Shown: one piece after another, positions 4,254 to 19,953 of the stretch | Position numbering within the stretch: the stretch's first letter is position 1 | Layout of the letters: every line of letters starts with the position of its first letter | IMG/VR virus record: IMGVR_UViG_3300046002_010180 | Span: 1 to 26,569 of that record | From: a virus | Direction: 5' to 3' (one strand) | Length of the DNA stretch: 26,569 bases | Position numbers and translations under genes: made by a program | Notes under the pieces: model-generated | Database searches by the model: none | Told to the model about the DNA's origin: nothing | What the model saw: the letters and a program-made list of their open reading frames with translations, nothing else

Positions 4254-4275
4254 TTCGTCAGATCCCTCTGACGAA
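4254..4275 (+). promoter_or_regulatory. Perfect hairpin ahead of the first methyltransferase gene
   Basis: TTCGTCAGA (4254-4262) pairs with TCTGACGAA (4267-4275) over the loop TCCC. An upstream in-frame ATG at 4275 sits in the 3' arm, which argues for the start at 4305. There is no strong T tract, so it may be an operator or leader hairpin rather than a terminator. Confidence 0.5.
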
Positions 4276-4304
4276 TGCTTCAACATTTTCGTCGAGGGTC
4301 ATCG

Positions 4305-5732
4305 ATGACGACTCCCTTCACCCCTGCCATGGCCAGCCGTATCGAGCTGTGGCCGCTGGATCGACTCAAGCCCTACGCCAAGAATGCGCGCACCCACTCC
4401 GATGCACAGGTGGCACAGATCGCCAGCAGCATCGTCGAGTACGGCTTCACCGCGCCGCTGCTGGTCTCGGGTGACGGCGACATCATGGCCGGGCATGGTC
4501 GCCTGGCTGCTGCGCAGAAACTTGCGCTCGATGTCGTGCCGGTGGTCGTGCTCGATCATCTGACACCTACTCAGCGCCGCGCGTACATCCTGGCGGACAA
4601 CCAACTGGCGCTGCAGGCCGGATGGGATGAAGCGTTGCTGGCTGCCGAGCTGGCCGAGCTGTCCGCCGCCGGTTTCGACCTGGCACTCACCGGCTTCAGC
4701 GACGACGAGCTGGCCGACCTACTGGGCAATGCCGATCCGGGTGACGAAACAAATCCGCCAATTGGCGGATTTACTGAAGACGCCGACGAGGACATCCCGC
4801 AGGCACCAACCAACCCGGTCAGCCGAGCCGGCGACATCTGGCAACTGGGTGCCCACCGCCTGATCTGCGGTGACTCGACCGACCCGGCTGTGGTCGCTGC
4901 GCTGATGGCCGGCGACCAGGCGAGCCTGTGCTTCACCAGCCCACCCTACGGTCAGCAGCGTGACTACACCCAGGGCATCGCCGACTGGGATGCGCTGATG
5001 CGCGGCGTCTTCGCCAACCTGCCCATGGCCGGCGACGGCCAGGTGCTGGTGAATCTGGGTCTGATCCACCGCGACAACGAAGTGATCCCGTATTGGGATG
5101 GCTGGATCAGTTGGATGCGCACGCAAGGCTGGCGGCGTTTTGGCTGGTACGTCTGGGACCAGGGGCCGGGGATGCCCGGCGACTGGGCCGGACGCCTGGC
5201 ACCCAGCTTCGAATTCGTCTTCCACTTCAACCGCGAAAGCCGCAAGCCCAACAAGATCGTGCCGTGCAAGCACGCCGGTCAGGACAGCCACCTGCGCGCC
5301 GACGGATCATCGACGGCGATGCGCGGCAAGGATGGTGAAGTCGGGGGCTGGACCCATGCCGGGCAACCCACCCAGGACTACCGCATCCCGGACAGCGTGA
5401 TCCGGGTGATGCGCCACAAGGGCAAGATCGGCCGGGACATTGATCACCCGGCGGTGTTTCCGGTGGCCCTGCCCGAGCACATCTTGCTGGCGTACTCGGA
5501 CCCAGGCGACATCGTCTTCGAGCCCTTTGGCGGCTCCGGCACCACGATCCTGGCCGCGCAAAGAACTGGCCGCCAGGCCCGCGCCATCGAACTCGCTCCG
5601 TCCTACACCGACGTGGCGGTCAAGCGCTTCCAACAAAACCATCCCGACATCCCGGTGACCTTGCTGGCGACCGGACAGACCTTTGCCGAGGTCGAGGCAG
5701 AACGACTGGAGACGACACATGCAACTGAGTGA
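4305..5732 (+). CDS. ParB-like domain / DNA methyltransferase fusion 1
   Basis: A 475-residue protein. Residues about 10-110 are a ParB/Srx-type N-terminal domain: IELWPLDRLKPYAKNAR, then the nucleotide-binding signature MAGHGRLAAAQKL (61-73). After a short linker comes a class-beta amino-methyltransferase: motif IV TSPPY (211-215) precedes the AdoMet motif I FEPFGGSGTT (405-414). TSPPY is found in N4-cytosine and some N6-adenine enzymes, so the modified base is open. This fusion is common in phages and usually protects phage DNA from host restriction. The start at 4305 follows GAGGG; an ATG at 4275 lies in a hairpin. A 22-bp perfect palindrome falls in the interdomain linker. It overlaps the next gene by 14 nt. 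Confidence 0.85.
   Translation: MTTPFTPAMASRIELWPLDRLKPYAKNARTHSDAQVAQIASSIVEYGFTAPLLVSGDGDIMAGHGRLAAAQKLALDVVPVVVLDHLTPTQRRAYILADNQLALQAGWDEALLAAELAELSAAGFDLALTGFSDDELADLLGNADPGDETNPPIGGFTEDADEDIPQAPTNPVSRAGDIWQLGAHRLICGDSTDPAVVAALMAGDQASLCFTSPPYGQQRDYTQGIADWDALMRGVFANLPMAGDGQVLVNLGLIHRDNEVIPYWDGWISWMRTQGWRRFGWYVWDQGPGMPGDWAGRLAPSFEFVFHFNRESRKPNKIVPCKHAGQDSHLRADGSSTAMRGKDGEVGGWTHAGQPTQDYRIPDSVIRVMRHKGKIGRDIDHPAVFPVALPEHILLAYSDPGDIVFEPFGGSGTTILAAQRTGRQARAIELAPSYTDVAVKRFQQNHPDIPVTLLATGQTFAEVEAERLETTHATE
4751..4772. repeat. 22-bp perfect palindrome inside the first methyltransferase gene
   Basis: AAATCCGCCAA (4751-4761) is followed directly by its exact reverse complement (4762-4772). It encodes the NPPIGGF linker segment (residues 150-156) between the ParB-like and methyltransferase domains. 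Confidence 0.8.
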
Positions 5733-6972
5733 CCTCAAACTCGAACACTGGCCGACCAGTCGGCTGATCCCATATGCCAGAAACCCCAGGAAGAACGATC
5801 ACGCCGTCGAGCAGATGGCCGGGGCCATTCGGGAGTTTGGCTTTCGGATTCCACTCATCGTCAAAAGCACCGGCGAAATTTGTGATGGCCATCTTCGCTA
5901 TAAGGCGGCGCAGCATCTCGGCCTGGAGCAGGTGCCGGTCATTCTGGCCGACGACCTGACCGAGACGCAGATCAAGGCCTTCCGCATTCTGGTCAACCGT
6001 TCAGCCACCTGGGCCGACTGGGATGACGATTTGCTGCGGCTGGAACTGGAGGAATTGCAGCTTGGCGACTTCGATCTGGCATTGACCGGTTTCGACGCCG
6101 ACGAGCTCCTGGACATCCTGGCCGGCGAGGAAACGAGCACCGAGGGCAACACTGACGAGGATGCCGCCCCCGAGGTCCCGGACACGCCGGTGTCCAAACC
6201 GGGCGACGTCTGGATCATGGGCCAGCACCGACTGCTGTGTGGGGATGCAACGCAGCCACACAGCTACGAGCTGTTGTTCGCTGGTCAACGTGCCCAGATG
6301 ATCTGGAGCGACTTGCCGTACAACGTCAATTACGCCAACAGTGCCAAAGACAAACTGCGGGGCAAGCACCGGCCTATTCTGAACGACAACCTGGGCGAAG
6401 GTTTTTACGACTTCGTCTACGACGCACTTTCGCTGATGCTGCCCGTCTGCGATGGCGCGGTCTATATCGCGATGTCATCCAGTGAACTGGATACGTTGCA
6501 GGCTGCGTTTCGTGCAGCCGGTGGGAAGTGGTCCACGTTCATCATTTGGGCAAAGCACACCTTCACCCTTGGACGAGCGGACTATCAAAGGCAATACGAG
6601 CCCATTCTGTATGGCTGGCCGGAAGGTGCCAGCCGTCATTGGTGCGGTGATCGTGATCAGGGGGACGTATGGAACATCAAAAAGCCAGCCCGCAACGATC
6701 TGCATCCAACGATGAAGCCCGTGGAGCTTATGGAGCGCTCGATCCGCAACTCGAGCCGTCCTGGAGACATTGTGCTGGACTGCTTTGGCGGTTCTGGCAG
6801 CACCTTGATCGCGGCCGAGAAATCGGGACGTCGTTGTTTTGCGATGGAACTCGACCCCAAATACTGCGACGTCATAGTTCGGCGCTGGCAAGATTTCACA
6901 GGCCAGAAAGCGACGTCCGAAGACGGACAGCGCATCTTCGACGAAGCGCTGGTAGAACAGGAGGTGCCGTGA
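5719..6972 (+). CDS. ParB-like domain / DNA methyltransferase fusion 2
   Basis: A 417-residue protein with the same architecture as its neighbour but clearly diverged. The ParB-like domain (LKLEHWPTSRLIPYARNPRKN, then EICDGHLRYKAAQHLG at 53-68) is followed by a class-beta methyltransferase with motif IV SDLPY (197-201), HPTMKP (329-334) and motif I LDCFGGSGST (353-362). N6-adenine enzymes of this type normally read DPPY; here the second position is Leu, which may be tolerated or may weaken catalysis. The ATG at 5719 overlaps the previous gene's end, so the two are coupled. The stop overlaps the following nuclease start (TGATG). Separate recognition specificities for the two enzymes are likely. 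Confidence 0.85.
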   Translation: MQLSDLKLEHWPTSRLIPYARNPRKNDHAVEQMAGAIREFGFRIPLIVKSTGEICDGHLRYKAAQHLGLEQVPVILADDLTETQIKAFRILVNRSATWADWDDDLLRLELEELQLGDFDLALTGFDADELLDILAGEETSTEGNTDEDAAPEVPDTPVSKPGDVWIMGQHRLLCGDATQPHSYELLFAGQRAQMIWSDLPYNVNYANSAKDKLRGKHRPILNDNLGEGFYDFVYDALSLMLPVCDGAVYIAMSSSELDTLQAAFRAAGGKWSTFIIWAKHTFTLGRADYQRQYEPILYGWPEGASRHWCGDRDQGDVWNIKKPARNDLHPTMKPVELMERSIRNSSRPGDIVLDCFGGSGSTLIAAEKSGRRCFAMELDPKYCDVIVRRWQDFTGQKATSEDGQRIFDEALVEQEVP

Positions 6973-7568
6973 TGATTCGGCAACTCAGTTTTCTGGATTC
7001 GCCTGAGGCGGCCGACAAACTTACCAGCGGTGCTCACACCGGTGGCCGCCAGCACAATCTGCGCGTCAGTGCGGAAATGGAAAGCGGTCGTGCTGGTGAG
7101 CATCTGGTGATGGCTGACTTGCTGCTCAATGGCTGGGTGGCATATCCGACTTCACAAGGCGTCCCTTATGACATTGCAGTGGACATCGGTGATCGGGTCA
7201 TTCGGGTTCAGGTGAAATCCACCAGGATGCCCAAGACGCCTGAGTCTCTCAATCGTGGCACCCCGTTGTATGTATTCAGTACGCGCCGTGCGGGAAAGAA
7301 GGGGCGCCGCCGCTACACCACCGATGACTTTGACGTGCTGGCACTGGTTGCGCTGGATCGTCGACTGATCGCCTACTACGCGCTTACCGATAGCCATCAC
7401 GACTGCATCGCGATCCGTGTGCCAGGTCTGCGCTACGGCGATGGCGGTTCCAGATGCCGATATTTCGAGGACGCCAAATTTGAATTGGCGTTGGATCGGG
7501 TGTTGCGTAGCCAAGCCCAGGAGGATCTGTTTTCTTCTGGTCAGGGAATCAATGTTCGACGCGCTTGA
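6972..7568 (+). CDS. PD-(D/E)XK nuclease, group I intron endonuclease-like
   Basis: A 198-residue protein with the nuclease core: Glu43 in ESGRAGEHLVMADLLLNGW, Asp67 in GVPYDIAVDIG, then QVKST with Lys82 (79-84). This is the E-x(n)-D-x(n)-QxK pattern of the PD-(D/E)XK family seen in group I intron-associated endonucleases and their stand-alone relatives. The enzyme should cut DNA in a metal-dependent way. The gene begins within the stop codon of methyltransferase 2 and is probably co-translated with it, which makes a restriction-type partnership possible. No intron is visible around it. Its 3' end overlaps the convergent RelE-type gene by 20 nt. Confidence 0.7.
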   Translation: MIRQLSFLDSPEAADKLTSGAHTGGRQHNLRVSAEMESGRAGEHLVMADLLLNGWVAYPTSQGVPYDIAVDIGDRVIRVQVKSTRMPKTPESLNRGTPLYVFSTRRAGKKGRRRYTTDDFDVLALVALDRRLIAYYALTDSHHDCIAIRVPGLRYGDGGSRCRYFEDAKFELALDRVLRSQAQEDLFSSGQGINVRRA

Positions 7569-7827
7569 GATCGCGGTAGAAATTCTCGTGTGGCCCAACC
7601 ATCAGCAGTTTGAGCGTGCTCTCGTCGAGGACTCGGTAGGCCAGCAGGCAGAGCAAGCTGCCCATGCGGAACTTGTAAACCTGCACACCAGCCAGATCGC
7701 CAACTTTGGTTTCGCCGGCTTCGGGCTGACTGGCAATGGTGCGTACTGCTTCGTCGAGCGCGGCTTTCTGCTGCTTGTGCAGTTTTTTGACGGTGCGCTC
7801 GAAGGTGGGGGTGACGAGGATGCGCAT
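7549..7827 (-). CDS. RelE/ParE-family toxin
   Basis: A 92-residue basic protein with the RelE/ParE fold pattern: strand MRILVTPTFERTVKKLHKQQKAALDEAV, then GETKVGDLAGVQVYKFRMG and a final strand-helix ending LLMVGPHENFYRDLKR. The 'GPHENFYRDL' end is typical of the family members paired with ParD-like antitoxins. RelE types cleave mRNA in the ribosome and ParE types inhibit gyrase; I cannot decide between them. It starts at 7827, sharing one base with the antitoxin stop, so translation is coupled. The stop lies within the end of the nuclease gene on the other strand. Confidence 0.85.
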   Translation of the reverse strand: MRILVTPTFERTVKKLHKQQKAALDEAVRTIASQPEAGETKVGDLAGVQVYKFRMGSLLCLLAYRVLDESTLKLLMVGPHENFYRDLKRVEH

Positions 7828-8036
7828 CAGCCGAACTGGTACTCGCCCACGGGCTCTTCCTGGTCGGCGATCAGGATGTCGCGGATGACGCTGAAGGGCA
7901 GGTCGGGGTTTTCAGCGGCGATCTTGCCGATCTGAGACCAGTATTCGATCTGCTTGGGTACCGAGCGGTGCTCGATGTTGCCGTAGCGCTTGGCACTTTC
8001 GACCAGGGCTTCCGGCAGTTTGACGTTGATGGCCAT
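7827..8036 (-). CDS. ParD-like antitoxin
   Basis: A 69-residue protein matching the ParD-like antitoxin pattern: N-terminal strand MAINVKLPEALVESAKRYG (ribbon-helix-helix entry), HRSVPKQIEYWSQIGKIAAENPDLPFSVIRDIL, and an acidic/polar tail that would wrap the toxin. It has a strong Shine-Dalgarno (GGAGGT, 8042-8047 on the plus strand) and its own promoter with an internal palindrome, as expected for autoregulation. The antitoxin-first order is the usual one. It is the first gene of a two-gene operon on the minus strand. Confidence 0.85.
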   Translation of the reverse strand: MAINVKLPEALVESAKRYGNIEHRSVPKQIEYWSQIGKIAAENPDLPFSVIRDILIADQEEPVGEYQFG

Positions 8037-8060
8037 AACTTACCTCCAATGGATGGGTGC

Positions 8061-8089
8061 ATTGTATTCCATAATGGACCAAAAAGTAA
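8061..8089 (-). promoter_or_regulatory. Promoter and operator of the ParD-like/RelE module
   Basis: On the minus strand TTACTT (8084-8089) and TACAAT (8061-8066) are spaced by 17 bases. The near-palindrome TCCATAATGGA (8068-8078) lies in the spacer, with 5-bp half sites around one base. This fits repression by the RHH antitoxin. Confidence 0.65.
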
Positions 8090-8115
8090 CCTGCTCGCCA
8101 TTTGACCTTGGCTGA

Positions 8116-8484
8116 TCAAGCCGCCAGTGACTCTTCGACGATCTCGCAGTGGATCACGAAGCCCGTCAGGTAGGGAAGGCCCTTGGGGATGCCGTACTGT
8201 TTGCTGGTGCTGCGGCCAATCGTCCAGCCCATCCAACGCTGCGTGGCGGCGTTGATCGCGTCGGCCAGGGTGGCGCCGGAGTAGAGACCGTTTTGCACAT
8301 CGTCGGCAAAGTGGCGACCGTGGCGGCTGTCGAGGAAGGTGCGGACCGACTGGAGAGGCTGGTGGGTGGCATCCGAGATCGCAGTCATGGCCAGGGGCCA
8401 GGCGGCTTCGGCCTGCTCGTTCATCGTGCCGTAAAAGCCCCACGACTCGTTCTGGGTGGCGGGGATCTGGGTGGTGGTGTTCAT
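8116..8484 (-). CDS. Conserved-type accessory protein, 122 aa
   Basis: A 122-residue protein. It begins with a polar segment (NTTTQIPATQNES), followed by WGFYGTMNEQAEAAWPLAMTAIS, a helical middle (FLDSRHGRHFADDVQNGL) and a C-terminal part with an aromatic GLPYLTGFVIH motif. I think I have seen such WGFYGT proteins in plasmids and integrative elements, but no function is known to me. The ATG follows AGGAG with 6-nt spacing. Upstream lies copy A of the cassette repeat, whose frame is open into this start. A position downstream of other minus-strand genes suggests a cargo operon. Confidence 0.65.
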   Translation of the reverse strand: MNTTTQIPATQNESWGFYGTMNEQAEAAWPLAMTAISDATHQPLQSVRTFLDSRHGRHFADDVQNGLYSGATLADAINAATQRWMGWTIGRSTSKQYGIPKGLPYLTGFVIHCEIVEESLAA

Positions 8485-8498
8485 CTCTGGCTCCTGGT

Positions 8499-8553
8499 GG
8501 TTGATCGTTGCGACACCCGTAGTAACGCGCTGTTCGAGATGGAAGCCAAGCGC
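8499..8553 (-). repeat. Cassette upstream repeat, copy A
   Basis: The core at 8525-8550 on the plus strand is ACGCGCT, ten variable bases, GAAGCCAAG. It lies 41 bases before the start codon at 8484. The flank GATCGTTGCGACACC is shared with copy B. The right end also forms one arm of a 10-bp inverted repeat (8544-8553 with 8569-8578). Confidence 0.8.
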
Positions 8554-8578
8554 CTGTTCGATCTTTTTGCGCTTGGCT
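8544..8578. repeat. 10-bp inverted repeat between two cassette genes
   Basis: AGCCAAGCGC (8544-8553) and GCGCTTGGCT (8569-8578) are exact reverse complements with a 15-nt spacer. The left arm is part of the copy A core. It lies just downstream of the gene ending at 8588. Confidence 0.7.
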
Positions 8579-8587
8579 CGGGGTTCC

Positions 8588-8854
8588 TTATTCCATCGTG
8601 TCGGCGCGCACCAGTTCCGCCTGGGCGCTGGCGATCAGGTCCAGGCGCAGGTTGGGCGTGATGTTGCAGGCTAGTTCATTCAGGGTCCAGTTCATCACAT
8701 CGGCCTTGTCGCGCAGCGACTCGGCTTCCTCGAAGCGGCTGGTGTAGCGATCCAGTTCGCGCAAGGCCCGTTCCAGGGTGGATCGGGCTTGGGCCAGGGC
8801 CTCATGGGCGCGGTGTTCGGCGTGCTGGGCTTGAAATTCGCGGGGGGTGTTCAT
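8588..8854 (-). CDS. Small coiled-coil protein, 88 aa
   Basis: An almost entirely helical protein. Residues about 5-55 (REFQAQHAEHRAHEALAQAR and on through LRELDRYTSRFEEAESLRDK) have the heptad-like charge and Leu/Ala spacing of a coiled coil. The C-terminal half ends in another helix (RLDLIASAQAELVRAD). There are no membrane or enzyme motifs. AAGGAG lies 8 nt before the ATG. A short leader frame with its own ATG at 8937 ends across this start (ATGA). The role is unknown; a binding or regulatory role is only a guess. Confidence 0.6.
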   Translation of the reverse strand: MNTPREFQAQHAEHRAHEALAQARSTLERALRELDRYTSRFEEAESLRDKADVMNWTLNELACNITPNLRLDLIASAQAELVRADTME

Positions 8855-8937
8855 GGTGTGCTCTCCTTTCGGTTGATCGTTGCGACACCTGTATGAACGC
8901 GCTTCGGGCCACTGAAGCCAAGCGATTCATCAATCAT
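8851..8937 (-). CDS. Possible 28-codon leader peptide within cassette repeat copy B
   Basis: The frame reads MIDESLGFSGPKRVHTGVAT and continues for 8 more residues to a TGA that overlaps the ATG of the 88-aa gene. It starts 7 bases after the stop of the upstream gene. Equivalent frames in the other copies also encode LGF-x3-(Q/K)RV. I see no good Shine-Dalgarno for its ATG, so translation is uncertain, and the DNA element may be what matters. Confidence 0.3.
   Translation of the reverse strand: MIDESLGFSGPKRVHTGVATINRKESTP
8871..8924 (-). repeat. Cassette upstream repeat, copy B
   Basis: The core at 8897-8922 has the same invariant bases and the same 10-base gap as copy A. It lies 43 bases before the start codon at 8854. 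Between core and gene it shares GGTTGATCGTTGCGACACC with copy A. Confidence 0.8.
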
Positions 8938-8944
8938 TTTTTGA

Positions 8945-9424
8945 TCACTGGTCTGCCAGTCTGTCGAGGATGCGCAAGGCGGCGGGATCGCCCGCCAGCG
9001 CCCGGCGCAGGGTGCGGATTGCCTGCTCACGCGACACCTCCAGGCGACAGTTATCGATCAGCCAGCCAATCGCACCAGCCTGGTCGTTATCGACGGTAGG
9101 GGCAGGCGTCTCTTCGGCAATGCCAACGTAGCGCCCGTAGCGGCTGCCCGAGGGATCGACAAACACGGTTGTGCGCCCTGGCGCGCTGACGGCCACCACG
9201 CGCCGGCACCCATCCCCGTGCCCGCCGAGTCCGGCCAGCCAGTCCCGATCCTGCAGCAGCGTGTTGGCGAAGGCGTCGTACTCCGCCTCAGTCAGTTCCT
9301 TGCGCCACGCGATCTCGATGGGCTCAAAGGGTGCGCTGGGGTCGGTGTTGTGCAGCACTTCGTCCAAGCTGTAGGGCTTGCGGGCAAAGCGGGCACGGAT
9401 CGGGGTGTGGTTGGTGGTGGTCAT
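8945..9424 (-). CDS. Accessory protein of unknown function, 159 aa
   Basis: A 159-residue protein. The N-terminus is basic (TPIRARFARKPYSLDEVL), the middle contains WRKELTEAEYDAFANTLLQDRDWLAGLGG, then a beta-rich part (RRVVAVSAPGRTTVFVDPSGSRYGRYVGI), and the C-terminus is helical (EQAIRTLRRALAGDPAALRILDRLADQ). The central part looks like a small single-domain protein typical of plasmid and ICE cargo; I do not recognise a named family. The ATG at 9424 follows AAGGA. An in-frame ATG at 9502 would add 26 residues encoded by repeat copy C; I prefer 9424 because of its ribosome binding site. Confidence 0.6.
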   Translation of the reverse strand: MTTTNHTPIRARFARKPYSLDEVLHNTDPSAPFEPIEIAWRKELTEAEYDAFANTLLQDRDWLAGLGGHGDGCRRVVAVSAPGRTTVFVDPSGSRYGRYVGIAEETPAPTVDNDQAGAIGWLIDNCRLEVSREQAIRTLRRALAGDPAALRILDRLADQ

Positions 9425-9439
9425 GGTGGGGTCCTTTCG

Positions 9440-9492
9440 TTGGCGGTTGGTGACAACAGCATTCACGCGCTGGTTGCCAGGGAAGCCAAGCT
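9440..9492 (-). repeat. Cassette upstream repeat, copy C
   Basis: The core at 9465-9490 shows ACGCGCT and GAAGCCAAG at the standard spacing, 41 bases before the start at 9424. Its flanks are the most diverged of the four. Confidence 0.75.
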
Positions 9493-9689
9493 CAATCTGC
9501 ATCGTGCTCGGCATCGATGGCCTCGATGGCCAGCACCACATCGGCGATGCGGTCGGCCTCGAAGCCAAACCCCCGGTGGCGCAGGAGGTGCTCGATGCTC
9601 GGATGCTTCATCCGGGCGATCTCCCGGCAGGCCGCCAGCAAGGCTGGCAACAGGTTTGCCGGGATCGGGGCGTTGGGCTGCGTGCTCAC
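9492..9689 (-). CDS. Small hypothetical protein, 65 aa
   Basis: A 65-residue protein starting with GTG, which overlaps the stop of the upstream DUF3489 gene (GTGA), so it is probably translated by coupling. It is helical: NLLPALLAACREIARMKHPSIEHLLRHRG, then an acidic helix DRIADVVLAIEAIDAEHDAD. No family is recognised. Unlike its neighbours it lacks the cassette repeat, which fits its being the second gene of a two-gene unit with the DUF3489 protein. Confidence 0.6.
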   Translation of the reverse strand: MSTQPNAPIPANLLPALLAACREIARMKHPSIEHLLRHRGFGFEADRIADVVLAIEAIDAEHDAD

Positions 9690-10282
9690 GCGGTGGCTTC
9701 CTCGGCAATCCGGTAGAGGCGCTGTCCTGCACCTGGCGTGCCGGCAGGGCCTTCGATCTTCTCGGAGACGATGGTCAGGCCCAACTTCTTCTTGAGTGCG
9801 CCGGCAAAGGTGCCGCGCACCGTGTGCGCCTGCCAGCCGGTGGCCTCACTGATCTGCGCGATGGTGGTGCCCTCGGGGCGTTTCAACATCTCGATCACCA
9901 GAGCCTGCTTGCTGTGCTCACGGCCGCGCTTCGGGGCGGTATCAGGCTGTTCCTGCTGCCAGCTGGCTTCGGCAACAGCCACGGCGGCTTCCAGTTCCGG
10001 ATCGTCGGCCATGTGCGGCGTAGCGACAGCCGTTGCGCTCATGGGCGGCAGCACATCTTCCGGCTGGGCCTCGCCCTTGATGATCGCGATGGCAGCGTGC
10101 GTGATGCGCCACTGGCCATCCATCTGCTCGATCAGCCCGCGCTGCGCAAGGCTGGCGATCATCTTGAGTTTGGCGCCACCTTTGAGGGCCAGCAGCGGCT
10201 CGATCAGGCCACCGGCGTCGCAATGCGCGCGGGTGATGAGGTCCAGTTGGCGTTCGGTGATGGGCGTGGTTTGTACGGACAT
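9686..10282 (-). CDS. DUF3489-domain protein, probable DNA-binding
   Basis: A 198-residue protein. The N-terminal 70 residues (ERQLDLITRAHCDAGG to QWRITHAAIAIIKG) look like a small winged-helix unit. After an Ala/Glu linker, residues about 118-195 match DUF3489: SKQALVIEMLKRPEGTTIAQ, then ISEATGWQAHTVRGTFAGAL and KKKLGLTIVSEKI. That domain is a helix-turn-helix type predicted to bind DNA, with no defined role. Two ATGs are possible; AAGGAG is 7 nt before the one at 10282 but only 1 nt before that at 10288, so I chose 10282. It may regulate the cassette genes, which is an inference. Confidence 0.8.
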   Translation of the reverse strand: MSVQTTPITERQLDLITRAHCDAGGLIEPLLALKGGAKLKMIASLAQRGLIEQMDGQWRITHAAIAIIKGEAQPEDVLPPMSATAVATPHMADDPELEAAVAVAEASWQQEQPDTAPKRGREHSKQALVIEMLKRPEGTTIAQISEATGWQAHTVRGTFAGALKKKLGLTIVSEKIEGPAGTPGAGQRLYRIAEEATA

Positions 10283-10311
10283 GGTCATGCTCCTTGTGGG
10301 TGATGTGAGGG

Positions 10312-10554
10312 TCAGGCGGCTTGCTGCTGGGTCGGTTGATCAGTGGCCTTGGCGGCGGCGCTTTGGCCTGCTTGATAGGCCGCCCTCAGGGCGCTTTGGA
10401 CGGCCCAGACGCTGACGTCGTGGAAGTCCAAGCGGTCGCTGTTGCGCGTGGCCAGGGTCTCGATGAAGAGGTGGTCCAGGGCGATCTGGGCGAGCAACTG
10501 GTCCAGTTGCTGGGTGGCCTTGGTGGCGGTGGCTTTGGTGGTGGTCTTGCGCAT
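10312..10554 (-). CDS. DUF6900-like small protein, 80 aa
   Basis: An 80-residue protein. A Thr/Lys/Ala-rich start (RKTTTKATATKATQQ) is followed by LDQLLAQIALDHLFIETLATRNSDRLDFHDVSVWAVQSALRAAYQAG. The middle part fits what I recall of DUF6900 (HLFIETL, TRNSDSLDFH, VSVW), small proteins found in mobile elements and without known function. AGGAG lies 6 nt before the ATG. An upstream in-frame ATG at 10629 would include repeat copy D. It is the first gene of the minus-strand cassette, with only 29 bases to the DUF3489 gene. Confidence 0.65.
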   Translation of the reverse strand: MRKTTTKATATKATQQLDQLLAQIALDHLFIETLATRNSDRLDFHDVSVWAVQSALRAAYQAGQSAAAKATDQPTQQQAA

Positions 10555-10565
10555 GGTGTTCTCCT

Positions 10566-10620
10566 GGGGGTGGGTTGCTGTGCTTGTAGTAACGCGCTGT
10601 TCAAGCGGGAAGCCAAGCGT
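10566..10620 (-). repeat. Cassette upstream repeat, copy D
   Basis: The core at 10592-10617 has the invariant ACGCGCT and GAAGCCAAG halves, 38 bases before the start at 10554. GTAGTAACGCGCTGTTC is identical to copy A. The element also borders the large-terminase gene on the other strand. Confidence 0.8.
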
Positions 10621-10662
10621 TCGCTTCATCTGTTGGGCATCTATTTCGCATCGGAGTGGCTT

Positions 10663-12525
10663 GTGTTCGACACTGCTGAATCGGCGGTCGAATCCGCCTG
10701 GAAACGGGGCCTCGCGCCCGATCCGATCCTCACCGTCGATGACTGGGCCAACCGCCACCGGATGCTCTCGTCGGTGGCCTCTGCTGAGCCGGGGCGCTGG
10801 TCGACCAGCCGCACGCCGTATCTCAAGGCGGTGATGGAAACGCTGTCGACGACCTCGCGCGTGGAGCGTGTGGTGCTGATGGCCGGGGCTCAGATCGGCA
10901 AAACTGAAGCGGGATTGAACTGGCTGGGTTACGTGATTCACCACGCCCCGGGGCCGATGCTGCTGGTGCAACCTACGGTGGAAGGCGCTAAGCGCGTCTC
11001 CAAGCAACGCGTCGATGCGCTGATCGAGGCGAGCCCTGAACTCGCCAGTCGGGTCAAAGACCCACGGTCGCGTGACTCCGGCAACACCCAGCTGATGAAG
11101 GAGTTCCCCGGCGGCGTGCTGATCATGACCGGCGCCAACAGTGCCGTGGGCCTGCGCTCGATGCCGGTGCGTTACCTGTTTCTCGATGAGGTGGATGGCT
11201 ACCCGGGCGACGCCGATGGCGAAGGCGATCCGGTGGCACTCGCCGTGCAGCGCGCGGCCACCTTCATCAACCGCAAGGTGTACCTGTGCTCGACGCCGAC
11301 GCTCAAGGGCTACTCGCGCATCGAGGCGGCCTACCTGGAGTCGGACCAACGGGTCTTCGAGGTGCCCTGCGTCCACTGTGGGCAGTTCAGCCAGATCCAC
11401 TGGCGCGACATCCGCTGGCCCAAAGACAAGATGGCGGAGGCCGCCTGGCATTGCCCGCACTGCGACGGCGTCCATCCCGAGTACCGCAAGCCCGGTCTGC
11501 TGGCCAACGGCCGCTGGACAGCCAAAGCTGAGGGCGATGGCAAGACGGTGGGTTTCCATCTCTCCAGCCTCTACAGCCCCTGGCTGACCTGGGGCGAGAT
11601 TGCCCAGGAGCACCACGCCGCCAAGGACGACCCGGTGCGGCTCAAAGTCTGGGTGAACACCAAACTGGCCGAGACCTGGGAAGACCGGGAGGGCGAGACC
11701 TTGGATGCCGAAGGCCTGATGGAACGCCGCGAGCCCTATGGCCCAGCCATCCCTGCGGAAGTGGCGCTCTTGACCTGCGGCATCGACGTGCAGGACGACC
11801 GGCTCGAACTCGAAGTGGTCGGCTGGGGCCGGGATGAGGAGTCCTGGTCGGTGGACTACAAAGTGCTGTGGGGCGACCCGTCAGCGCCCGACACTTGGGC
11901 GCAACTCGATGCCTATCTGGGCAGTCGGTTTGAGCACGAGACACTCAGCAATGGCCTGACGATTGAAGCCGCCTGTCTCGACACCGGCGGCCACCACACG
12001 CTGGCGGCCTATGCCTTCTGCAAGGGCAGGGAGCGAAAGCGCATCTGGGCGATCAAGGGGGGCTCAGGCAAACGCCCGATCTGGCCCAAGCGCCCGAGCA
12101 AGGCGAACAAGGGCAAGGTCAATCTGTTCACGGTGGGCGTCGATGCGGCCAAGGAGGCGATCTATGCCCGGCTGAAGAAGTCAGGCGCCGGGGCCGGGAC
12201 GATGCATTTCCCACTGGATCGCGATGCGCAGTATTTCGAGCAGCTGACCGCCGAGCGGATTCGCACCCGGTATGTGAAGGGCTTCCCGCAACGCTTCTGG
12301 TGGAAGCCCGATGGCCGGCGCAACGAAGCGCTGGACTGCCGGGTGTATGGCTACGCCGCGCTGCATGGCCTGCTGTCGATGGGGCTGAACCTGAACAAGC
12401 GGGTGGAGGCGCTGCCGCCGATTCCGGTGAGCCGTCAATCCCGAAACGATCCACGCCCAGTGACGGCTCCGATGACCGCCAGTCCGCGCCGACGGCGCAT
12501 GGCGATTTCTTCGAACTACCTCTGA
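10663..12525 (+). CDS. Terminase large subunit, GpA family
   Basis: A 620-residue protein with the motifs of lambda GpA-type terminases: Walker A variant MAGAQIGKTE (73-82), Walker B YLFLDEVD (171-178), the coupling motif CSTP (209-212), and a zinc-binding pair CVHC/CPHC (236-239, 264-267). The C-terminal half carries the nuclease domain with GIDVQDDRLELEVVGWG. It pumps DNA into the prohead and cuts it. There is no ATG near the conserved start. GTG at 10663 has GGAG 6 nt upstream and gives the usual N-terminus (ESAWKRGLAPDPILTVDDWA). Frames open further upstream run through the minus-strand cassette and are not credible. Confidence 0.9.
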   Translation: MFDTAESAVESAWKRGLAPDPILTVDDWANRHRMLSSVASAEPGRWSTSRTPYLKAVMETLSTTSRVERVVLMAGAQIGKTEAGLNWLGYVIHHAPGPMLLVQPTVEGAKRVSKQRVDALIEASPELASRVKDPRSRDSGNTQLMKEFPGGVLIMTGANSAVGLRSMPVRYLFLDEVDGYPGDADGEGDPVALAVQRAATFINRKVYLCSTPTLKGYSRIEAAYLESDQRVFEVPCVHCGQFSQIHWRDIRWPKDKMAEAAWHCPHCDGVHPEYRKPGLLANGRWTAKAEGDGKTVGFHLSSLYSPWLTWGEIAQEHHAAKDDPVRLKVWVNTKLAETWEDREGETLDAEGLMERREPYGPAIPAEVALLTCGIDVQDDRLELEVVGWGRDEESWSVDYKVLWGDPSAPDTWAQLDAYLGSRFEHETLSNGLTIEAACLDTGGHHTLAAYAFCKGRERKRIWAIKGGSGKRPIWPKRPSKANKGKVNLFTVGVDAAKEAIYARLKKSGAGAGTMHFPLDRDAQYFEQLTAERIRTRYVKGFPQRFWWKPDGRRNEALDCRVYGYAALHGLLSMGLNLNKRVEALPPIPVSRQSRNDPRPVTAPMTASPRRRRMAISSNYL

Positions 12526-19158: not shown

Positions 19159-19184
19159 GTAATTGCGCAAATTTGCGCAATTAC
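19159..19184. repeat. 26-bp perfect palindrome between PAAR and yhaV
   Basis: GTAATTGCGCAAA (19159-19171) is followed at once by its exact reverse complement (19172-19184). It covers the yhaV stop codon. Convergent genes end on both sides, which would fit a bidirectional terminator, but neither side has a T tract. Confidence 0.85.
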
Positions 19185-19636
19185 CGTTTCCAGTCAGACT
19201 TGCTGGCAGCCATCAGGGCATCCCAGTCATCTGGCGGATGGCCAGACTTGAGCATTTTCTGGAAGACCACGTAAGGGTCCGTCTTGGCACCCGATGAGCG
19301 CAAAGTGTGCTCATCGTTCACCCAGGCGAAGATGATGATCCGAGTCTTGGAGTCAAACCGAAAGAACAACCGAAAGCGCCTGCCGATCTTGGCTCGGCGC
19401 CAGTGCCGAAACGCTGGCCCCATGGTGTTGCCTTGCCGGTATTCATCTCGGTTCGGGTCGCTGGGGACCACCTCGAGGATCAGTGTCGCAAGGGCATCAA
19501 AAAGTTTGACGTTGGCATTGGACTCAAAACCCGCTGGATCTTGTGCCTTGGCACGCGACGCTGCTGCTTCCAGTTTCTGTAACTGCTCTATCAGGCAATC
19601 GTGGAAGAGCAGATTCCACCCGTGACGCTGAATCAC
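19181..19636 (-). CDS. yhaV: YhaV-family ribonuclease toxin
   Basis: A 151-residue protein, close to E. coli YhaV (154). Recognisable parts are HGWNLLFHDCLIEQLQKLE (5-23), the central NTMGPAFRHWRRAKIGRRFRLFFRFD (about 70-95) and IIIFAWVNDEHTLRSSGAKTDPYVVFQKML. The conserved Arg/His cluster belongs to its RelE-like ribosome-dependent RNase fold. It starts with GTG at 19636, overlapping the prlF stop (GTGA). It forms a pair with PrlF, antisense to the baseplate genes, and ends on a 26-bp palindrome. Confidence 0.9.
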   Translation of the reverse strand: MIQRHGWNLLFHDCLIEQLQKLEAAASRAKAQDPAGFESNANVKLFDALATLILEVVPSDPNRDEYRQGNTMGPAFRHWRRAKIGRRFRLFFRFDSKTRIIIFAWVNDEHTLRSSGAKTDPYVVFQKMLKSGHPPDDWDALMAASKSDWKR

Positions 19637-19953
19637 AGCGCCACGTCGCCTTCAATGTCCTCGTTCAGATCGACCTGCTTGCCAAGCGCTGCGAGCATCG
19701 AGCGCGCCAGGTCATCCGGCAGCGTGGTGATGTGTCGGCCGGACTGAATGTCTTTTTCGAGCAAGGCGAGAAAGCTGCCGATGGCTGGATCTTCGTGAGG
19801 TTCGTCAGTCACGCGGGTGACGATGACGCGATCACCCGCGAAATCAAAGGCCACCTTGCCCCCGGCATCCACGCCCAAGGCCTGACGGATGGGCTTGGGC
19901 AGGGTGATCTGTCCCTTCGATGTGATGGTGGCAACTTCGTGAATGGCGGGCAT
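19633..19953 (-). CDS. prlF: PrlF (SohA) family antitoxin
   Basis: A 106-residue protein, the length of E. coli PrlF (111). The N-terminus (EVATITSKGQITLPKPIRQALGVDAGGKVAFDF, 6-38) is the AbrB/MazE-type swapped-hairpin DNA-binding motif. The C-terminal helix (DPAIGSFLALLEKDIQSGRH) is the PrlF-specific YhaV-binding part. It neutralises YhaV and represses its own promoter. AGGAGG is placed well before the ATG at 19953. An inverted repeat sits over its promoter. Confidence 0.9.
   Translation of the reverse strand: MPAIHEVATITSKGQITLPKPIRQALGVDAGGKVAFDFAGDRVIVTRVTDEPHEDPAIGSFLALLEKDIQSGRHITTLPDDLARSMLAALGKQVDLNEDIEGDVAL

Follow-up and report, generated by a model that had tools for sequence, protein, structure and literature searches.

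The stretch of DNA analysed here contains four copies of a short element that is very probably a promoter, found in a single large group of temperate phages and common to unrelated genes; its transcription and start site are deduced from sequence features. This stretch (hereafter the window) is a 26.6-kb virus record (26,569 nucleotides) with a lambda-type portal, a major capsid protein E and a terminase. The four copies lie in an array of small minus-strand genes that is flanked by the ParB-N/methylase genes and the terminase gene and runs against the late genes (Table 1). An earlier sequence-only reading had placed exact copies at 8525-8550, 8897-8922, 9465-9490 and 10592-10617, and these were found to be correct base for base. 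In dinucleotide shuffles, the mean number of matches was 0.35 even at up to three mismatches, and four matches were never reached. All four copies precede minus-strand genes, as had been claimed, but the gaps to the ATG are 40, 42, 40 and 37 bases for copies A to D instead of 38 to 43. The downstream genes are indeed unrelated, their proteins having no sequence similarity, and the extra stretch that had been noticed in copies A and B is real (GGTGTCGCAACGATCAACC on the gene strand); it also precedes many homologues of genes A and B elsewhere.

Table 1. Genes and element copies of the minus-strand array in the window. The register and the predicted +1 of copies A to D were taken from the logo and from the divergent copies.
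Feature	Position	Strand	Description
Gene after copy A	8116..8484	-	122 aa; all-helical model; family 'IPATQNE..'; phrog_8020, function unknown
Copy A	8514..8550	-	-35 TTGGCT 8549-8544; -10-like GTTACT 8526-8521; predicted +1 G 8514
Gene after copy B	8588..8854	-	88 aa; no family
Copy B	8886..8922	-	-35 TTGGCT 8921-8916; -10-like GTTCAT 8898-8893; predicted +1 G 8886
Gene after copy C	8945..9424	-	159 aa; no Pfam family; weak phrog_21303
Copy C	9454..9490	-	-35 TTGGCT 9489-9484; -10-like GTGAAT 9466-9461; predicted +1 G 9454
65-aa gene	9492..9689	-	overlaps the DUF3489 stop codon; without an element of its own
DUF3489 protein	9686..10288	-	200 aa; Pfam E 6.5e-28; predicted winged-helix fold
DUF6900 protein, after copy D	10312..10554	-	80 aa; Pfam E 2.7e-25
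Copy D	10581..10617	-	-35 TTGGCT 10616-10611; -10-like GTTACT 10593-10588; predicted +1 A 10581

Copy D is the first element of the array and begins a unit of which the DUF3489 gene is the second gene, while copy C begins directly 3' of the stop codon of the 65-aa gene. PADLOC and Pfam assigned no function to the array proteins, and a fold search with the structure model of the gene A product gave no reliable match. Directly past the array, a ParE-like toxin and ParD-like antitoxin pair (7549-8036) is present without an element. A second pair, YhaV toxin and PrlF antitoxin, is found on the minus strand within the tail-gene region (19181-19953). Two adjacent genes at 4275-6972 encode ParB-N and N6/N4-methylase fusions, a family present in 16/16 compared phages.

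The element was found in more than 80 viral and prophage contigs of Beta- and Gammaproteobacteria and Nitrospira, and also in Acidithiobacillus, including prophages of A. caldus, so that a simple duplication confined to this locus, which the sequence-only reading had considered, is excluded. A pattern scan of viral and genome contigs yielded at least 82 loci with two to five copies each. Every one of 38 larger virus records contained from 1 to 9 copies (at most two mismatches), and the reversed control pattern gave 0 matches in the same 38 records. Many of the records analysed are fragmentary. In 15 bacterial genomes with matches, most copies cluster in prophage-like stretches, and the genomes with a single match look like chance; a Thiomonas genome has five copies inside 16 kb. 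By our own estimate (16 specified bases, 257 Gb, two strands), about 120 chance matches are expected in genome contigs. Because many single matches in such contigs are chance, multi-copy contigs and homology-based sets were used, and logos were built from 199 multi-copy instances and then from 299 non-redundant copies.

As the first set had been chosen by pattern, homologues of gene A, gene C and DUF6900 were gathered by protein similarity and their upstream regions were scored. Matches at 13 to 17 of 17 positions were obtained upstream of 112/137 DUF6900 genes, 108/125 gene A homologues, 20/21 gene B homologues, 86/159 DUF3489 genes and 41/102 gene C homologues. The scores were largely bimodal, being either in this range or at background, and in many of the background cases the gene directly abuts the preceding one. 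The element is absent before the relatives of gene A on Thauera and Pseudomonas plasmids and in Bordetella phage CN1. Two copies are present in the named phage AcaML1 (JX507079), where the annotated CDS Gp29 and Gp30 (11341-12087) overrun both of them; current annotation thus misses the element, and the annotated start of Gp30 is probably too far upstream. No description of the element sequence or of its protein families was found in the literature searched.

Read along the gene strand, the sequence of the element is CTTGGCTTC-N10-AGCGCGT. Its conserved core is gCTTGGCTTC-N5-cGAAC-AGCGCGT-TCAT, followed by N5 and YRYC. Two blocks with a variable gap had been described from the window; the blocks are exact, but the gap is partly conserved, and the T at position 29, which is 100% conserved in multi-copy contigs, lies outside the searched pattern. 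The spacer is 17 nt long and its downstream half is conserved as GAAC-AGCGC, or as GAAGC in distant phages. The -10-like box takes the forms [GA]TTCAT, GTTACT and GTGAAT. Ahead of the element, positions from about -4 to -8 and from about -15 to -17 are A-rich, as would be expected of UP elements, and a Y-R step is present at positions 35/36 in 82% of copies (75% at 29/30 and 68% at 38/39). A credible ORF start lies 30-50 nt downstream in 270/299 non-redundant copies, versus 14.7% of random positions, and the element sits some 40 bases ahead of dozens of unrelated genes. The start codon is mostly located 34-45 nt past the core, and in the leader logo nothing more than a loose, purine-rich ribosome site is visible.

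Any two copies have a core identity of 0.97. For the 6-nt spacer and the flanks, identity is 0.48 to the same gene in other phages versus 0.32 to other genes of the same phage. Judged from these sequences, the copies are old and not a local duplication, each having descended with its own gene while only the core was held constant.

No other single argument for a promoter is as strong as the spacing in divergent copies, because the sampling favoured no such spacing. This set was anchored only on GC[GA]TTCAT before a gene, canonical copies being excluded, and comprised 21 non-redundant members. TTG was found at 17-nt spacing in 19/21 of them; of the 32 offsets, no other one had it in more than 3 copies. 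The best register is therefore TTGGCT-17-GTTCAT, which replaces the TTACTA or TTCATA 18 nt on that had been suggested initially; the accompanying idea of a shared promoter is well supported by the spacing in divergent copies, by position and by breadth. Instead of TTGGCT, distant relatives carry TTGATA, TTGATT, TTGCTA, TTGTCT or TTGCCT as -35 variants.

When compared with sigma-70 promoters, a -35 box beginning with TTG is present in 19/21 non-canonical and in all canonical copies, and the 17-nt spacer falls within 16-18 nt, no other offset being enriched. The -10 box does not follow TAnnnT: the T at -7 is invariant, and [GA]TTCAT lacks the A at -11. A sigma-70 consensus scan of the element region found no promoter. 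The sigma-54, sigma-32 and ECF consensus forms were also compared by eye, and their spacing or motif does not fit.

It is unlikely that the element is instead an operator or another protein-binding site between genes, bound by a repressor or by some activator that is not RNA polymerase, in which case the -35-like part would be incidental. Such a site would agree with the poor -10 box, with the conserved GAAC-AGCGC-GTTC part, which often forms a short dyad, and with the presence of the predicted winged-helix protein DUF3489 in 38/38 records. However, the GTTACT and GTGAAT subtypes do not preserve the dyad, and the constant 17-nt distance of TTG in divergent copies matches the needs of RNA polymerase. 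An operator could possibly lie inside the promoter, the two readings being compatible.

The conserved letters might also be read as codons, CTT GGC TTC ... CAG CGC GTT CAT giving LGFxxxQRVH, in which case a translated leader peptide or a conserved C-terminus would couple translation to the next gene. The copies before DUF2924 overlap, in one frame, the 3' end of a conserved ORF of 64-78 aa and form its last codons. Their conservation could therefore be due in part to coding, and Gp29 of AcaML1 likewise ends through the element in the LGF frame. Across 299 copies, however, the LGF frame is no more open upstream than the other frames, and in-frame ATGs are equally common in the three frames (87, 86 and 67). 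Third codon positions show the same degree of conservation as the other two, T29 is invariant under H, T or N codons, and upstream genes mostly stop 10-60 nt before the element with no preferred frame. A peptide is thus a very improbable explanation of the element. The 64-78-aa ORF itself (..EIADLLAAALLRLR..LGFxxxQRVHxxP), which ends through the element at loci such as L475, L476, L486 and L487, has no Pfam family match.

An RNA leader whose structure would affect translation or attenuation was considered as well. In about 25% of copies, an upstream arm matches at least 8/10 bases of GAAGCCAAGC and could pair with CTTGGCTTC, as compared with 4% in shuffles; distant alphaproteobacterial DUF3489 leaders are also strongly structured (see below). 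RNAalifold on ungapped copies nevertheless gave no consensus pairs. Since this approach is weak for variable loops, single-sequence folding and the search for upstream arms were added, and the commonest pair had an average probability of 0.14 only over the 299 copies. No Rfam match was obtained at E up to 1 in window positions 8000-10750. An RNA leader can hardly be expected to account for the element.

The sequence-only reading had also offered a gene-cassette border, that is, a recombination site gathering cargo genes. As in integron cassettes, small unrelated genes have a repeated element between them, and the arrays differ in the genes they contain and in gene order. Between related arrays, an element is gained or lost along with its gene: indels (L012/L023, L007/L075) remove both, with junctions at elements. 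Unlike integron attC sites, however, the element has no GTTRRRY/RYYYAAC core, its consensus being GTTCAT, GTTACT or GTGAAT, and no common hairpin; its place is upstream of the gene, as for a promoter, rather than downstream, and copies are also present away from the array, alone before a recombinase operon. In addition, the spacers are gene-specific and not common within an array. Gain or loss of whole units is expected of any functional promoter-gene pair, and homologous exchange at repeats suffices for it. Most indel breakpoints fall together some 400-450 nt past an element, at what is taken as the variable linker inside DUF3489, and raw breakpoint enrichment at elements is not informative because of this attribution. 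A border used for recombination is therefore extremely unlikely.

With the element read as a promoter, the start of transcription would be the Y-R step some 7 nt beyond the invariant T, and the resulting leader would be about 30 nt long and contain a Shine-Dalgarno site. The array of the window would then be split into separately started units, namely DUF6900-DUF3489-65 aa, C, B and A. About 35 protein families were counted downstream of element copies. Elsewhere in these phages, copies are found before the operon of DUF2924 and a serine recombinase and before a gene that neighbours the endolysin gene, and the element would thus mark a phage-wide regulon. The small accessory genes and the integration genes seem to be switched on by one common signal.

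Since the '-10' is not a sigma-70 box, a phage factor likely acts at the element. From the conserved spacer and from a -10 that has no A at -11, we infer that RNA polymerase would need a phage-encoded partner there, or that a repressor would bind. The element would in this way point to a transcription factor. DUF3489 is present in 38/38 element-bearing records, a co-occurrence that is partly built in because DUF3489 is itself an array gene. Its AlphaFold model (pLDDT 82, pTM 0.42) contains winged-helix-like parts, and the nearest PDB neighbours of the model are MarR-like proteins at a weak E of about 0.01; searching the PDB with the DUF3489 sequence brought no useful result. DUF3489, which the sequence-only reading had named as a possible regulator, is the leading candidate, as a lead only, and naming the factor is a guess. 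DUF6362, likewise only a lead, is present in 33/38 element-bearing records and has a helix-turn-helix resembling sigma region 4 by eye. We tentatively propose, as a possibility short of an even chance, that the element is the cognate promoter of a new kind of phage factor (DUF3489, or the sigma-region-4-like DUF6362), which would redirect host RNA polymerase to TTG-17-[GA]TTCAT and co-regulate integration and exchangeable accessory genes across phages of several bacterial phyla.

A DUF3489 subgroup has GPAGTPGAGQ before the last strand, as seen in the proteins of the window and of AcaML1. In five records (G014, G015, G016, G019 and G021), the DUF3489 match ends short at the same place and DUF6362 is absent; the CAGAGCGTT variant of the element is present in three or more of these records.

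In phages, lambda CII (pI/pRE/paQ), P2 Ogr and Mu C each govern a regulon under one activator. The present element is comparable to these regulons in that one signal would serve an integration operon and distant units. We know of no described activator site, such as the CII site TTGC-N6-TTGC, that is present in the element. Moron promoters are ordinary sigma-70 sites that differ between genes. In PMC5567305, the criterion applied is a sigma-70 promoter together with a terminator. As with morons, phage accessory genes here would have their own promoter, opposite to the late genes, with a TTG -35 and a 17-nt spacer; unlike in moron promoters, one conserved non-sigma-70 -10 is common to about 35 families, and no terminators were identified here.

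By analogy, the closest described kind of element is the ESAS of cluster K mycobacteriophages (PMC3203893, PMC11373665), in which putative SigA-type hexamers 17-18 nt apart lie before unrelated genes and for which a regulated promoter was proposed. The associated SAS is defined as a 13-bp GGGATAGGAGCCC located 3-9 nt before the start codon (PMC3203893, PMC11373665). Like ESAS and SAS, the present element is a short conserved intergenic repeat within one phage, mostly in one orientation and before unrelated gene families. It differs from both in sequence and hosts, which here are Beta- and Gammaproteobacteria, Acidithiobacillus and Nitrospira, and, unlike SAS, it comes without the 13-bp GGGATAGGAGCCC near the start codon. 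In contrast to ESAS, its -10 box is non-canonical and it has no obligate imperfect 17-bp inverted repeat, an upstream inverted arm being found in only about 25% of copies. With the element as a sequence rule, accessory and possibly host-directed genes can be found in a large and mostly uncultured phage group, in which such genes would travel as promoter-gene units tied to a serine-recombinase integration operon.

Strongly folded leaders were observed about 100 nt before the ATG of Rhizobiales DUF3489 genes (alphaproteobacterial loci L535-L564), many of which have a DUF2924 gene directly after. These leaders consist of a hairpin P1, a GGGGCTT..GTRG linker and a hairpin P2, often with an outer stem over the Shine-Dalgarno site. 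The MAFFT alignment of the alphaproteobacterial leaders was too poor for folding or for a useful structure model, and a comparison of the Rhizobiales leaders with Rfam gave no significant match. Their minimum free energies range from -31 to -62 kcal/mol, with varied pair types in both stems. The Rhizobiales DUF3489 leader is thus a candidate for a structured leader of a new kind and seems to be distinct from the phage promoter.
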